NCBI RefSeq assembly: GCF_026672425.1
Contig: NZ_JAPPRC010000003.1
Location: 1,408,501-1,472,500 of the forward strand
Direction: 5' to 3'
From: Pannonibacter sp. SL95
GTDB lineage: Bacteria > Pseudomonadota > Alphaproteobacteria > Rhizobiales > Stappiaceae
DNA: 64,000 bases
Positions 43,309 through 54,791 of the stretch are shown piece by piece (the stretch's first letter is position 1; each line of letters opens with the position of its first letter). The notes under the pieces were generated by a model. It saw only the letters and a list, made by a program, of their open reading frames with translations, had not been told where the DNA came from and ran no database searches. The position numbers and the translations under genes are program-made.

Positions 43309-44625
43309 CTATCCCTGTTCCGGCTCCCGTCGCGGGGGCCGGTTCCTTTTTGCGGCAGCCAGGTCAATCACCTCTGCAGGCGCTTTCTCCCCTTTCAATC
43401 CCGCCTCAATCCGCGCGCCGACAGCATCCGACAGCACCCGGATAGGGTCCGCATCGGGGCTGACGTATCGATTTGTCATCGTCAGATTAGAGTGTCGCAA
43501 AAGGTGCGATATAAGGAAGGCATTGCTCCCCGCCTGTCCGGCGAAGGTTCCGACCGTATGTCGCAAATCGTGCAGGCGCACGTCATCGAGCCCCGCATGG
43601 GCGCGGATGCGCTGCCAGGCATTTTCAACCACCTCTTTGGACACGTGCCGCTTGGTGTCCGCATCACGGGGCAGCACCCAAGGCCCGCGCCGGGGCAACG
43701 CAGCCAGAACAGCCAGCGCGCCCGCACCAACCGGATGCGCCCGCCGCCCGCCGCCTTTTCGCGCCGGGAAAGCCACCGTCCCGGCTTCCGCATCCACATG
43801 TACCCATTTCAATTCCAGCACTTCTGAAAGCCTTGCGCCCGTCAGCAGCAGCAACCGGACAGCCGCGATAGCGGGAGCGCTTACGGCCGCACGCCGGGCT
43901 TCGGTGTCCTTGGCAAGGTGCTTCAGCGCATCGCCTTCCGCCTTGACCTTCCAGGGCAAACCCTTAGCTTCCGCCTCGTCCAGCGCCGCCCCAAGCCGGG
44001 CCAGCTCGTCCATATTGAGGAAGCGCTCACGTTCGGTTTCAGCGTAGCGCTTGACCAGCCGTGTCGGGTTAGAGTTTTCGGGACGGATGCCCCAGGTTTC
44101 CGCCAAATTGAATGCCTTTGACAGGATCGCAAGGGCGAGGTTCGCCTGTCGCGGCGTGTCCGCCAAGGCTTTGTGCAGCTTGACCACATCCGCGCGGGCG
44201 AAGCTCGCCAGCTTGCTCTTGCCGATGCGCGGCTTCAGAACCTTCTCCACCACCCGTGTTGCATGAACGAGCGTGGTAGCGGCGTTATGCACCTCGACGT
44301 GCTCGGCAAGGTACTTGTCCAGCAAGTCGGCAACGGTTTCCGCCGCCCGCAGCGCCTGCCGTTCTGCCGCCGGATCACGGCCCATTCGCACCTCGACCAG
44401 CTTTGCAGCAGCCAGTTTGCGCGCCTGATCCGGCGCAAGCTCACCGTGGCGGCCAATTACCATCCGCCGCGTCCGTCCCGCCTCTGTCCGATAGGCGAGA
44501 ACATAGCTCTTCACCCCCGCCGGAGTGATCTGCAAGCCAAAGCCTTTCAGGGCATCATCCCACAAAAAGCTAAGCTTTTCCTGAGGCTTGGCGGCATCGA
44601 CAACCCTTTTGGTCAGGTTGGGCAT
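43309..44625 (-). CDS. tyrosine-type site-specific integrase
   Basis: 438 residues, P4/DUF4102-type N-terminal arm-binding domain (LSFLWDDALKGFGLQITPAG), SAM-like core-binding middle and C-terminal catalytic domain: Arg in LTGARLSEVLELKW, His/Arg in LHDLRHTVGTFAG, the second His in LLRHSNLTMTNRY and the nucleophile Tyr just after. Its start faces the right-hand repeat cluster at 44650-44738. Target is the 3' end of tRNA-Thr. Confidence 0.95.
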   Translation of the reverse strand: MPNLTKRVVDAAKPQEKLSFLWDDALKGFGLQITPAGVKSYVLAYRTEAGRTRRMVIGRHGELAPDQARKLAAAKLVEVRMGRDPAAERQALRAAETVADLLDKYLAEHVEVHNAATTLVHATRVVEKVLKPRIGKSKLASFARADVVKLHKALADTPRQANLALAILSKAFNLAETWGIRPENSNPTRLVKRYAETERERFLNMDELARLGAALDEAEAKGLPWKVKAEGDALKHLAKDTEARRAAVSAPAIAAVRLLLLTGARLSEVLELKWVHVDAEAGTVAFPARKGGGRRAHPVGAGALAVLAALPRRGPWVLPRDADTKRHVSKEVVENAWQRIRAHAGLDDVRLHDLRHTVGTFAGQAGSNAFLISHLLRHSNLTMTNRYVSPDADPIRVLSDAVGARIEAGLKGEKAPAEVIDLAAAKRNRPPRREPEQG

Positions 44626-46698: not shown

Positions 46699-46732
46699 GT
46701 CAGGCCTCTGATTTCGTTAGATTTTTCCTCCG

Positions 46733-46854
46733 TCATCCCGGCCAAGCGAAGCGTCGAGCCGGGACCGGAGAGCCGAAGTCTCGATTTTTGGGGAGTTGGG
46801 AACCGATGGGCCTTGGCTCTCCGGTCCCGGGTCTTCGCTTCGCTGCGCCCGGGA
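46733..46854. repeat. REP-like pair (family C) at IS110 insertion site
   Basis: TCATCCCGGCCAAGCGAAGC at 46733 and the inverted copy GGTCCCGGGTCTTCGCTTCG at 46822, forming a facing pair. The second palindrome is interrupted at its right end by the IS110 element (CCGGGAT then IS). Confidence 0.7.
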
Positions 46855-46886
46855 TTGTTTGTTGTCCGAGGTGCTAGGGTAAAGGG

Positions 46887-47044
46887 GAAGCTGCGACCCT
46901 TAACCCGCAGCTTCAGCGTCAGGCGACCGTCCCGGGGTCGGGTTTTCACCCGCTGTCATCATGGCTCCCTGACGCTTCCCTTTTCCCGCTTGGAGAGTTG
47001 ATTGGGCCTCTGGTTGACACCCACGCCCGCAAACAATCCGAAGC
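46887..47044 (+). ncRNA. candidate IS110 bridge RNA (copy 1)
   Basis: 5' hairpin 46887-46895/46906-46914. A second stem 46915-46923/46968-46976 (9 pairs) encloses an internal loop with CCCGGGGT at 46931-46938 and GTCATC at 46955-46960. A third bulged stem (GCTTGG 46989-46994 / CCGAAGC 47038-47044) encloses AGAGTTGATT 46994-47003 and CAAACAATCC 47030-47039. Loop 1 matches the REP target either side of the insertion, loop 2 matches the element's right end (AGAGTTGAT) and left end (GGATTGTTTG). Layout follows known IS110/IS621 bridge RNAs (inference). Confidence 0.7.
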
Positions 47045-47064
47045 ACGTCAAGGATAGCACGGCC

Positions 47065-48024
47065 ATGCCCGCCCTGCAGCAGCCTCCCGCCCATGTCTGC
47101 GGCTTCGATGTCGCCAAGGACAGCATCACCGCCTTCGACACCGCCACCGGCCGTGTCACGACCTTCCCCAACCGCTCCGCCAGCATCCGCAAGGCGCTGA
47201 CAGGCCTGTCGGCCGACTGCCTGTGCGTGTTGGAGCCGACCGGCGGCCACGAGCGCCTGCTGGTGGGCGAACTGACGGCAGCAGGCCTTGCCTGCCACCG
47301 GGCCGATACCGTTAAGGTCAAGGCATTCAGCCGGTCCTTCGGCCGTCTTGCCAAGACAGACGCCATCGATGCCCAGGCTCTGGCCCGCTATGGCGAGGAG
47401 CGCTGGAAGACACTCGCCCTGTTCACGCCGGCCGATGAGACCCAGAGCACACTCGCCAGCCTCAATGCCCGCCGTCAGGAGCTTCTCGCCCTCAAGGTGG
47501 CCGAGCAGAACCGCTCAAAGATCCCCGGAGAGGGACCTGGCATCGCGATCATCCGCCGCTCCTGCCAGGTCATCCTGCGGGCGATCCTGCACGAGATCGA
47601 GGCCATCGACGCCGCCATCGAGGCGCTCGTCGACGCCTCGCCGCAGCTCGCCCGCCGGATCGAGGTCTGCTGCTCCCTGCCGGGCGTGGGCAAGCGCACC
47701 GCCATCACCCTCGCCGCAACCATGCCGGAACTGGGAACGATGGACCGGCGCCAGGCCGCAAGCCTCGCCGGGGTCGCCCCTCATCCGAAGGACAGCGGAA
47801 CCCTCAAGGGATATCGCCGGATGCACGGCGGACGCTCCACCGTCAAGCCGGCCCTCTTCATGGCCGCCTTGTCCGCAAGCCGCGCAAACGGGCCATTAAA
47901 GGAGGTCTATCAAAGGCTTATCAACAACGGGAAGAAGCCAATCCTCGCAATCGCCGCCCTCATGCGAAAGATCATCGTCATCCTGAACGCAAGGATCAGG
48001 CAAAACGCACAACAACAGAGTTGA
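47065..48024 (+). CDS. IS110-family transposase (copy 1)
   Basis: 319-residue DEDD recombinase. N-terminal RuvC-like Asp in GFDVAKDSI, Glu in LEPTGGHERL, Asp-Asp in KTDAIDAQAL; C-terminal Transposase_20 with PGVGKRTAITLAA and the serine-nucleophile region HGGRSTVKPALFMAAL. ATG 47065 is used because the frame from 47002 (TTG) would run through the bridge-RNA region. Confidence 0.92.
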   Translation: MPALQQPPAHVCGFDVAKDSITAFDTATGRVTTFPNRSASIRKALTGLSADCLCVLEPTGGHERLLVGELTAAGLACHRADTVKVKAFSRSFGRLAKTDAIDAQALARYGEERWKTLALFTPADETQSTLASLNARRQELLALKVAEQNRSKIPGEGPGIAIIRRSCQVILRAILHEIEAIDAAIEALVDASPQLARRIEVCCSLPGVGKRTAITLAATMPELGTMDRRQAASLAGVAPHPKDSGTLKGYRRMHGGRSTVKPALFMAALSASRANGPLKEVYQRLINNGKKPILAIAALMRKIIVILNARIRQNAQQQS

Positions 48025-48041
48025 TGACGATCAATGACTGG

Positions 48042-48069
48042 GAACGGGCGGCCAGATGGCTGCCCGTTC
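48042..48069. terminator. hairpin immediately right of the IS110 copy 1
   Basis: GAACGGGC 48042-48049 pairs with GCCCGTTC 48062-48069, followed by TTGC. Possibly the original gnd-side terminator. Confidence 0.45.
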
Positions 48070-48183
48070 TTGCATTGTGGTGCAAGCCGGTGCTTTGACC
48101 TTGGCCTTCGCCCCGGGATGCTGTTTAGTGGTCGTCCCTGCGGCAAAGACCTGCAGGACCAAGGGGATGCGCCGGGAAACGCC

Positions 48184-48969
48184 ATGACGACGAGACCACA
48201 GATCCGCTCTGGCCGCATTGCGCTTGTGGGCAGCGACACCGAGGAATCACGCCTGGCGCTGGACAATCTGGCTGAGCGCTACGGCAATGCCCCACCCGAG
48301 GAAGCCGACGTGATTGTTGCTCTCGGCGGTGACGGCTTGATGCTGCAGACGCTGCATCGCTTCATGAATTCCGGTCTGCCGATCTATGGCATGAATCGGG
48401 GGTCGGTCGGCTTTTTGATGAATGAATACAAGGAGGAAGACCTCCTGGCCCGGCTTGGTGCGGCCGATGTGACGACGATCCATCCCCTGTTCCTGCAGGC
48501 GGTCGACCAGTCCGGCGGCCATCACACGGCGAGGGCGATCAATGAGGTCTCGCTGCTCAGGCAGACGTACCAAGCGGCAAAGCTGCGCATTTCGGTCGAT
48601 GGACGGCAGCGGCTTGAGGAACTGATCTGCGACGGCTGCCTGATCGCGACACCGGCGGGAAGTACGGCCTACAACCTCTCGGCGCATGGGCCGATCTTGC
48701 CGATTTCCGCGCCTTTACTTGCACTTACGCCAATCAGCGCCTTCCGCCCGCGGCGCTGGCGCGGGGCGCTTCTGCCCAACCGGGCCACGGTCGACATCGA
48801 GGTTCTTGAACCCGGAAAGCGCCCGGTGAGTGCGGCGGCGGACCATACCGAGATCCGTAATGTTGCCAAGGTCAGCGTGCGCGAGGACACCGGATCGTCC
48901 TGCATCATGATGTTTGACCAGGAACATGGCTGGGACGAAAGAATTCTGAGCGAGATGTTTCGATATTGA
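48184..48969 (+). CDS. nadK: NAD kinase
   Basis: ATP-dependent phosphorylation of NAD to NADP, 261 residues. [11 protein letters not shown] (GGDG) and the NE/D motif INEVSL, then [19 protein letters not shown] 48184 begins [13 protein letters not shown]; the upstream open frame to 48034 is in the spacer next to the IS. The IS end is 155 bp upstream, so the native promoter may have been displaced by the insertion. Confidence 0.95.
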
Positions 48970-53520: not shown

Positions 53521-53620
53521 TCCGCTTGGCGCTTTTTCAGGTGACCCTGGCGGGTTCAGGCTGGGTGAACCGGGAGCGGAGCGTCCCGGGTTCAGACGGA
53601 TAAAAAAACCCTATGTGTCA

Positions 53621-54580
53621 TCAACTCTGTTGTTGTGCGTTTTGCCTGATCCTTGCGTTCAGGATGACGATGATCTTTCGCATGAGGGCGGCGATTGCGA
53701 GGATTGGCTTCTTCCCGTTGTTGATAAGCCTTTGATAGACCTCCTTTAATGGCCCGTTTGCGCGGCTTGCGGACAAGGCGGCCATGAAGAGGGCCGGCTT
53801 GACGGTGGAGCGTCCGCCGTGCATCCGGCGATATCCCTTGAGGGTTCCGCTGTCCTTCGGATGAGGGGCGACCCCGGCGAGGCTTGCGGCCTGGCGCCGG
53901 TCCATCGTTCCCAGTTCCGGCATGGTTGCGGCGAGGGTGATGGCGGTGCGCTTGCCCACGCCCGGCAGGGAGCAGCAGACCTCGATCCGGCGGGCGAGCT
54001 GCGGCGAGGCGTCGACGAGCGCCTCGATGGCGGCGTCGATGGCCTCGATCTCGTGCAGGATCGCCCGCAGGATGACCTGGCAGGAGCGGCGGATGATCGC
54101 GATGCCAGGTCCCTCTCCGGGGATCTTTGAGCGGTTCTGCTCGGCCACCTTGAGGGCGAGAAGCTCCTGACGGCGGGCATTGAGGCTGGCGAGTGTGCTC
54201 TGGGTCTCATCGGCCGGCTTGCACAGGGCGAGTGTCTTCCAGCGCTCCTCGCCATAGCGGGCCAGAGCCTGGGCATCGATGGCGTCTGTCTTGGCAAGAC
54301 GGCCGAAGGACCGGCTGAATGCCTTGACCTTAACGGTATCGGCCCGGTGGCAGGCAAGGCCTGCTGCCGTCAGTTCGCCCACCAGCAGGCGCTCGTGGCC
54401 GCCGGTCGGCTCCAACACGCACAGGCAGTCGGCCGACAGGCCTGTCAGCGCCTTGCGGATGCTGGCGGAGCGGTTGGGGAAGGTCGTGACACGGCCGGTG
54501 GCGGTGTCGAAGGCGGTGATGCTGTCCTTGGCGACATCGAAGCCGCAGACATGGGCGGGAGGCTGCTGCAGGGCGGGCAT
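53621..54580 (-). CDS. IS110-family transposase (copy 2)
   Basis: 319 residues, identical to copy 1 except two adjacent residues (CK here, FT there, in the LALxxPADET stretch). All DEDD and Transposase_20 motifs are present. ATG 54580 corresponds to 47065 in copy 1. Encoded on the minus strand. Confidence 0.92.
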   Translation of the reverse strand: MPALQQPPAHVCGFDVAKDSITAFDTATGRVTTFPNRSASIRKALTGLSADCLCVLEPTGGHERLLVGELTAAGLACHRADTVKVKAFSRSFGRLAKTDAIDAQALARYGEERWKTLALCKPADETQSTLASLNARRQELLALKVAEQNRSKIPGEGPGIAIIRRSCQVILRAILHEIEAIDAAIEALVDASPQLARRIEVCCSLPGVGKRTAITLAATMPELGTMDRRQAASLAGVAPHPKDSGTLKGYRRMHGGRSTVKPALFMAALSASRANGPLKEVYQRLINNGKKPILAIAALMRKIIVILNARIRQNAQQQS

Positions 54581-54600
54581 GGCCGTGCTATCCTTGACGT

Positions 54601-54758
54601 GCTTCGGATTGTTTGCGGGCGTGGGTGTCAACCAGAGGCCCAATCAACTCTCCAAGCGGGAAAAGGGAAGCGTCAGGGAGCCATGATGACAGCGGGTGAA
54701 AACCCGACCCCGGGACGGTCGCCTGACGCTGAAGCTGCGGGTTAAGGGTCGCAGCTTC
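54601..54758 (-). ncRNA. candidate IS110 bridge RNA (copy 2)
   Basis: Exact reverse complement of the fold at 46887-47044. The guide strands are therefore identical in both copies. The left target next to it reads TCCGGGAT and the right side GATGACA. Confidence 0.68.
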
Positions 54759-54791
54759 CCCTTTACCCTAGCACCTCGGACAACAAACAAT

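Follow-up and report, generated by a model that had tools for sequence, protein, structure and literature searches.

An IS110-group insertion sequence of Pannonibacter sp. SL95 with a predicted bridge RNA in its left end and insertions at REP-like sites

We analyzed a 64,000-nucleotide stretch of the Pannonibacter sp. SL95 genome (the window), in which an insertion sequence interrupts a REP-like palindrome without duplicating its target. The main features of the locus are as follows; a slash within a site marks the point of insertion.

46731 to 46855, + strand: left part of the REP-like palindrome (the target), ending in target positions 1–9, GCCCGGGAT (46847–46855)
46856 to 48025, + strand: IS110-group element of 1170 bp, delimited by an empty site and by boundaries common to 19 full copies
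47065 to 48024, + strand: transposase/recombinase gene, 319 aa, with DEDD RuvC-like and Transposase_20 domains (PF01548, PF02371) and a conserved serine, S244
48017 to 48025, + strand: right end AGAGTTGAT, the left donor site, with stop codon TGA (48022–48024) and, once circular, a −35-like TTGAT(T)
53620 to 54789, − strand: second copy of the element with the same guides, inserted in TCCGGGAT/GAC, 2 differences in 1170 bp

The second copy lies inverted about 5.6 kb from the first, and the pair could mediate inversion of the intervening segment. About 2.2 kb upstream of the element, a frame on the − strand (43309–44625) resembles, by eye, a tyrosine-recombinase integrase.

To define the boundaries we used the same locus in Pannonibacter carbonis (L191), which is an empty site with no element and no target duplication (one copy was tested in this way). 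When the window flanks were joined after T46855 and before G48026, 319 of 333 aligned positions were equal to the P. carbonis sequence, and the alignment was unbroken at the joint itself; of its two 1-base gaps, the closer one fell about 10 bases to the left. The P. carbonis empty site reads CGCCCGGAATGACG and differs by one base from the GGGAT of the window. Because the empty site places the exchange point after 46855, the element spans 46856–48025 and its non-coding left end (46856–47064) measures 209 bp, not the 211 bp given by an earlier reading made from the sequence alone (the sequence-only reading); GGAT at 46852–46855, which that reading took for the left end of the element, is target DNA. 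At the other extremity the donor site contains the stop codon, so that the right end has a single non-coding base. The long left and short right non-coding ends and the precise insertion without target duplication are features of the IS110 group. The IS1111 layout is the reverse, with a short left and a long right non-coding end and its RNA in the right (downstream) end, whereas here the predicted RNA lies in the left end; IS1111 elements are further characterized by sub-terminal inverted repeats of 7–17 bp. By its testable sequence features, the element is a member of the IS110 group and of the bridge-RNA kind.

The gene product scored above the cut-off of the NCBIfam model NF033542 (IS110 family RNA-guided transposase), and it combines the two Pfam domains and the conserved serine with a length in the 300–460 aa range of IS110 proteins. 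When the window protein was aligned with eight relatives, D15, E57, D99, D102 and S244 were invariant (9/9), and putative catalytic roles were assigned to these residues by analogy with IS621. A PDB profile search with the same nine proteins found chains of IS621 and ISCro4. The TGA stop codon lies inside GAGTTGATGAC in all 20 elements whose frame could be read to its end; in the other six of the 26 elements compared below, the frame end was not readable (L022, earlier stop; L127, frame not found; four cut records). With TGA inside the right end, the same nine bases hold the last codons, the donor site and part of the predicted −35 box.

The host genome (5.04 Mb, same genus as P. carbonis) contains 19 full copies of the element, which are 99–100% identical, together with one fragment and a further 74-bp match of 75%. 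The open frame was intact and the guides were identical in all 19 full copies, and every one of the 19 was inserted in a REP-like site. Their left flanks were GCCCGGGGT (12 copies), GCCCGGGAT (5), GTCCGGGAT (1) and GGCCGGGGT (1), with GCCCGGG(A/G)T present in 17 of the 19, and the right flank started with GATGAC in 20 of 20 copies, fragment included. The segment 46300–46855 had at least 84 matches in the same genome, with 40 of 188 candidates scored, and, among the matches listed, those to the repeat begin near 46731. In C3–C6 of this genome, the REP-like words CCGGGATGAC and CCGGGGTGAC occurred 144 and 67 times, versus twice for each reversed control. The fragment (L020, C6 near 1131344) is a 3′ piece without left end; its right flank is the same as that of a full copy about 5 kb away (L015, C6 near 1136658), pointing to local duplication or to recombination after insertion.

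Within the left end, the following RNA features and candidate guides were located.

46875 to 46880, + strand: −10-like TAGGGT (3/6 to consensus)
46887 to 47044, + strand: predicted bridge RNA of about 160–175 nt (length approximate at the 3′ end), from the fold and from covariation over 26 left ends
46887 to 46914, + strand: 5′ stem-loop, 9 bp
46915 to 46976, + strand: target-binding loop module, with an inner hairpin (46939–46943/46948–46952)
46931 to 46938, + strand: left target guide CCCGGGGT, target positions 2–9, base 46937 (G) facing core position 8
46955 to 46959, + strand: right target guide GTCAT, target positions 12–8
46960 to 46961, + strand: putative target-loop handshake guide CA, complementary to donor T6 G7
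46988 to 47044, + strand: donor-binding loop module
46994 to 47002, + strand: left donor guide AGAGTTGAT, equal at 9/9 positions to the element right end (48017–48025)
47030 to 47037, + strand: right donor guide CAAACAAT, complementary at 8/8 positions to donor core AT plus left end TGTTTG
47038 to 47039, + strand: putative donor-loop handshake guide CC, complementary to target G6 G7 (46852–46853)

None of 200 shuffles of 46870–47064 folded as stably as the native sequence (z −3.6). For the analysis of covariation we aligned 26 left ends, one per element, selected for more than 44% identity and presence of the left end, from P. carbonis, same-family genomes, Pseudovibrio, Stappia, Pleomorphomonas, Mesorhizobium, Phyllobacterium, Aquibium, Martelella and three MAGs; L111 and L114 (same records as L022 and L072), L117 and L140 (left end broken) and L125, L126 and L170 (extra copies of L124, scored in the 49-copy set described below) were left out. 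RNAalifold missed the 5′ stem-loop on this alignment, and we therefore counted changes at the stems derived from the window. Fourteen of the 31 stem pairs had changed on both sides (shuffled mean 7.4; 0/500 shuffles as high), and 88.4% of the cells were paired in the true register versus 38–52% with the partner strand slid. Changes on both sides affected 7 of 9 pairs in the 5′ stem-loop (75.6% of cells paired) and 6 of 9 in the outer stem of the target module (97.4%). The outer stem of the donor module, GCTT/AAGC, was unchanged in 26/26 left ends; being invariant, it is conserved, but without support from covariation. The order of a 5′ stem-loop and two loop modules is that of a bridge RNA, and both the stem-loop and the target stem covary. 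The sequence-only reading, which had staked its case on such covariation, placed stems 1 (46887–46895/46906–46914) and 2 (46915–46923/46968–46976) exactly, as perfect 9-bp helices; its stem 3 (46989–46994/47038–47044) was roughly right, a better pairing being GCTT 46988–46991 with AAGC 47041–47044 and an inner GGGC 47004–47007 with GCCC 47025–47028. Its guides, CCCGGGGT (46931–46938), GTCATC (46955–46960), AGAGTTGATT (46994–47003) and CAAACAATCC (47030–47039), were all found where it had put them. Rfam 15 returned no bridge-RNA match, either for the window at the gathering threshold or for the left end (46840–47080) with E values of up to 10 allowed; an intron match (E 1.4) on the other strand of the left end was taken as chance.

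The first loop is complementary to both strands of the target, core included. The left target guide matched the left flanks of the 19 full copies at 6–8 of 8 positions. The single G-for-A difference reported between guide and flank exists at the window copy and is gone in 13 of the 19 full copies, where the flank has G. The right target guide does match GATGAC at the right junction, as had been proposed, but GAT belongs to the donor and only GAC and what follows to the target. Guide and flank are nearly invariant on this side, with a co-change in one relative, L127 (GCCAT with flank GATGGC). Between elements, the left target guide matched its own flank better than swapped flanks, with means of 7.15/8 versus 5.56 over the 26 elements, 7.19 versus 5.62 over the 21 distinct guides and 5.90 versus 4.54 over positions 1–7 alone of these 21, each difference being reached in 0/20,000 permutations, a test that is inflated because the elements are related and their independence is overstated. 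At positions 1–7, foreign flanks fitted equally well or better in 11 of 20 cases for three of the 21 guides (L051, L063 and L072, and also L127) and in 10 of 20 for the window guide; as read from these comparisons, the gain of own over swapped pairs is located in the divergent guides. Multi-copy families contributed one copy each to the permutation test, and all fetched copies of seven families formed a set of 49, in which 8/8 positions matched in 20 copies, 7/8 in 20, 6/8 in 7 and 5/8 in 2. Related copies thus sit mostly at sites matching their own guides (at least 7/8 in 40/49, only 5–6/8 in 9/49), another point on which the sequence-only reading had hung its proposal. In L112 guide and flank are both GCGTAGGAT and in L116 both CCCTGGGAT; L124 (5/8) and L120 and L121 (6/8 each) are poor matches. 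Five relatives (L118, L120, L122, L123 and L124) have no T in the target guide at core position 9.

Core position 8 allowed the guide to be compared with the supply of sites. In the lineage of the window, whose guide has G at this position, the 19 copies occupy 13 G and 6 A sites, whereas the empty CCGGG(G/A)TGAC sites of the same genome number 67 with G and 144 with A, indicating that the G-guide lineage prefers G targets (odds ratio 4.7, p 0.002). Conversely, in six genomes whose elements have guide A, 23 A and 5 G sites are occupied (odds ratio for A 4.5, p 0.003, stratified by genome). The odds ratio was 4.2 (p 0.006) without G014, whose guide reads GCGGGAT and to which the empty-site pattern is unsuited, and 4.0 (p 0.007) when G007 was removed too; G021 (one copy, A) and L079, a broken copy of G074, are outside this count. 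Wobble pairing as a full explanation of the A and G targets was dropped, as guide-A relatives occupy G targets in 5/28 copies.

These data bear on the possibility that the guide–flank matches represent a captured old target or common REP sequence with no function in pairing. Both guides and flanks consist of REP-like words rich in GC, and in one sequence taken alone the target-loop matches are weak: shuffles of 46869–47064 gave the 7/8 match of the left target guide in 119/1000, which is not significant, and the 6/6 match on the other strand in 27/1000. We nevertheless consider such capture practically negligible, since the average match is clearly poorer when guides are swapped among flanks of the same REP-like pool, the guide base at position 8 predicts the target base against availability, compensatory changes maintain the stems, and the guides are identical across 19 copies at different sites and so are not local copies of their flanks. 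All four guide matches in order were obtained in 0/20,000 shuffles.

The P. carbonis element differs from that of the window at 29/1170 bases, of which 3 fall in the 9-nt guide stretch 46930–46938 (P 0.001). Two of these changes, T at 46931 and A at 46937, agree with its flank, GTCCGGGAT, and the one at 46930 does not. Its recombinase is 98% identical to that of the window, yet guide and flank have both changed. This pair of elements is relevant to a second explanation, in which the REP site is recognized by the recombinase itself and the left end, as a structured RNA that is 5′ untranslated or antisense, regulates translation of the transposase. The left end does lie directly before the gene, an invariant AGG is found shortly 5′ of the start codon in the aligned left ends, and ISPpu9, which also inserts in REP sites, has such RNAs, Asr9 and Ssr9 (PMC8450116). 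A leader, however, does not predict the observed tracking of flank and element ends by loop bases, nor a changed guide with a changed flank beside a nearly identical recombinase, and as the sole function of the left end regulation appears very improbable. Regulatory and bridge-RNA roles could coexist.

The second loop is complementary to both strands of the predicted circle junction, AGAGTTGATTGTTTG, in which the right end is joined to the left end. Neither the left donor guide match nor the right one arose in 1000 shuffles (0/1000 each). Among relatives the left donor guide is nearly invariant and equals the right end at 9/9 positions in 13 of 22, position 1 differing in 6 and core positions 8–9 in 4. 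The right donor guide follows the left end over the 26 elements: at left-end base 14, C faces G in 8/8 and T faces A in 16/16, A being unpaired in 2/2; at base 13, C faces G in 2/2 and T faces A in 24/24; base 15 is looser (G–C in 19, mismatch in 7/26).

In the 19 copies the left junction reads (A/G)T and the right junction AT. In IS621 both strands are cut after core position 9 (PMC11208158); accordingly, the core retained at the left junction is that of the target, and the core at the right junction is that of the donor. The AT-type core of the sequence-only reading is therefore right for the donor, whereas the target core is RT (GT in 13 and AT in 6 of the 19 copies), so that target and donor cores are unlike in 13/19. 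Recombination by IS621 has also been observed with GT, AT and TT cores (PMC11208158), and the GT and AT cores seen here are thus within the known range; in the excerpts of the IS621 literature covered, no discussion of recombination between unlike cores was found.

Two further dinucleotides may correspond to the handshake guides of IS621, by analogy with PMC11208158. The sequence-only reading had ended the right donor guide with CC (47038–47039); these two bases match target G6 G7, not the element end, and occupy the IS621 handshake position. CC was present there in 25/26 elements and target GG in 25/26, and CA was present at the target-loop position in 24/26. Both dinucleotides fit in 23/26 (donor end seen in 19 and assumed in 4), with partners and guides that hardly vary and show no covariation. 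As G7 is common to target and donor, only position 6 separates the cognate from the handshake partner.

The predicted circle would also create a σ70-like promoter, by sequence, at its junction, where the right end provides TTGAT and the left end T. TAGGGT lies 18 nt from this TTGATT, and the start predicted about 7 nt downstream of TAGGGT is 46887, the first base of stem 1. TAnnnT occurred 17–18 nt after TTGATT in 25/26 left ends (right end seen in 22 elements, the common one assumed in 4), against a mean of 0.98 and a maximum of 4 in 2000 shuffles. A promoter scan of 46700–48200 in the integrated state gave no consensus promoter.

Taken together, the sequence, covariation and guide–flank tests uphold the bridge-RNA reading of the left end, and we conclude that this insertion sequence almost certainly belongs to the IS110 group, has a bridge RNA encoded in its left end and employs this RNA in the manner of IS621. 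The element would excise as a circle, in which the joined ends would form the promoter TTGATT-18-TAGGGT and transcribe the RNA from about 46887. The recombinase would bind this bridge RNA, whose first internal loop would pair with the top and bottom strands of a REP-type site, (C)CCGGG(R)T/GAC, and whose second loop would do the same at the circle junction, AGAGTTGAT/TGTTTG. Exchange would then follow after core T9 on both strands, leaving the target core (AT or GT) at the left junction and the donor core AT at the right one. What can be read from the DNA itself is the anatomy of the element, its boundaries, the lack of target duplication, the site specificity of the 19 copies and the covariation of the stems, as well as the joint changes, between relatives, in left target guide and target and in right donor guide and left end. 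That this bridge-RNA element is now an inactive relic is unlikely: the 20 copies include one fragment and the P. carbonis copy carries an in-frame stop, but the 19 full copies are 99–100% identical with 19 open frames, suggesting recent spread.

The two target guides differ in what they offer core position 8, G on the left and U on the right. Under a split core guide of this kind, A and G targets would each form one Watson–Crick and one wobble pair, and a GT target core would recombine with the unlike donor core AT, leaving unlike-core junctions. Combined with the P. carbonis and A-guide data, this would amount to natural retargeting between REP variants, readable from genomes alone, a proposal to which we give even chances.

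Bridge-RNA systems are a kind of element described in 2024. The mechanism is established for IS621 (PMC11208160, PMC11208158), and the window element shares with it a left-end RNA in which a 5′ stem-loop is followed by a target and then a donor loop module. The likeness extends to the strand logic, the 5′ strand of each loop matching the bottom strand and the 3′ strand the top strand, to an 8-nt left and a 5-nt right guide with core, to a REP target, to a promoter-like junction, and to insertion without target duplication that leaves the target core at the left junction and the donor core at the right. The two differ in target, (C)CCGGGRTGAC here versus ATCGGGCCTAC in IS621, and in core, RT (target) and AT (donor) versus CT. 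Unlike IS621, the present element has G7 in common to target and donor, with position 6 alone separating cognate from handshake pairing, and a right end of one non-coding base with the stop codon inside the donor site. ISEc21, with its seekRNA, and ISMch6 resemble it in having an upstream non-coding region whose guide matches both target strands, the bottom-strand match first; ISEc21 differs in its target, which lies in IS3-family genes and not in REP, and in a 74-nt seekRNA described as the more abundant form (PMC11187229). For ISCro4, the structure of a related recombinase has been solved (9t56, E 8e-36), a likeness at the protein level.

The ISPpu and ISPa elements are of the IS1111 type, with the RNA on the other side. 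ISRm19 of Sinorhizobium meliloti (4/4 copies), ISPpu9, ISPpu10 and ISPa11 have all their copies in REP (PMC1525189) and are likened to the window element by site, not by sequence. That IS110 elements target REP sequences was published by 2006 at the latest (PMC1525189), and natural redirection has been reported for ISEc21/ISMch6 (PMC11187229). In a literature survey of partial coverage, with ISfinder outside its scope, we found no publication on the present element.

Beyond the close relatives, L127 (Allosphingosinicella MAG, 1282–1497) is a divergent one, in which the right target guide reads GCCATC and the flank GATGGC, left donor guide and right end are both TGAGTTG, and the donor-loop handshake dinucleotide is CA, fitting the donor rather than the target; no −10 was found at its junction. 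Relatives near 35% identity (G014b, G029, G015, G002 and G045) have, by eye, other flanks, and L084–L090 and L108–L109 (G029 and G045, about 35% identity) lie within another repeat, GGCCCATCCTT...CGAGAC. In G029 and G045 the left ends contain CCATCCT and CGAAG, which suggests that the same guide logic may apply. Phages searched with the whole element gave no match, and 11 pattern matches in viral contigs were rejected, none being a relative. Plasmids gave no DNA match to the left end; 11 plasmid records contain a relative of the transposase, at less than 60% identity and E up to 1e-40.

Bridge recombinases attract interest as programmable tools for inserting DNA. For IS621 the mechanism has already been published, and what appears to be new here, judged from genome comparison, is a well-populated lineage with natural retargeting by a few guide letters and with unlike cores. 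Nineteen natural insertions made with one guide, together with sister elements in which a few letters have changed, make per-base specificity, tolerance of core mismatches and retargeting readable from genomes.
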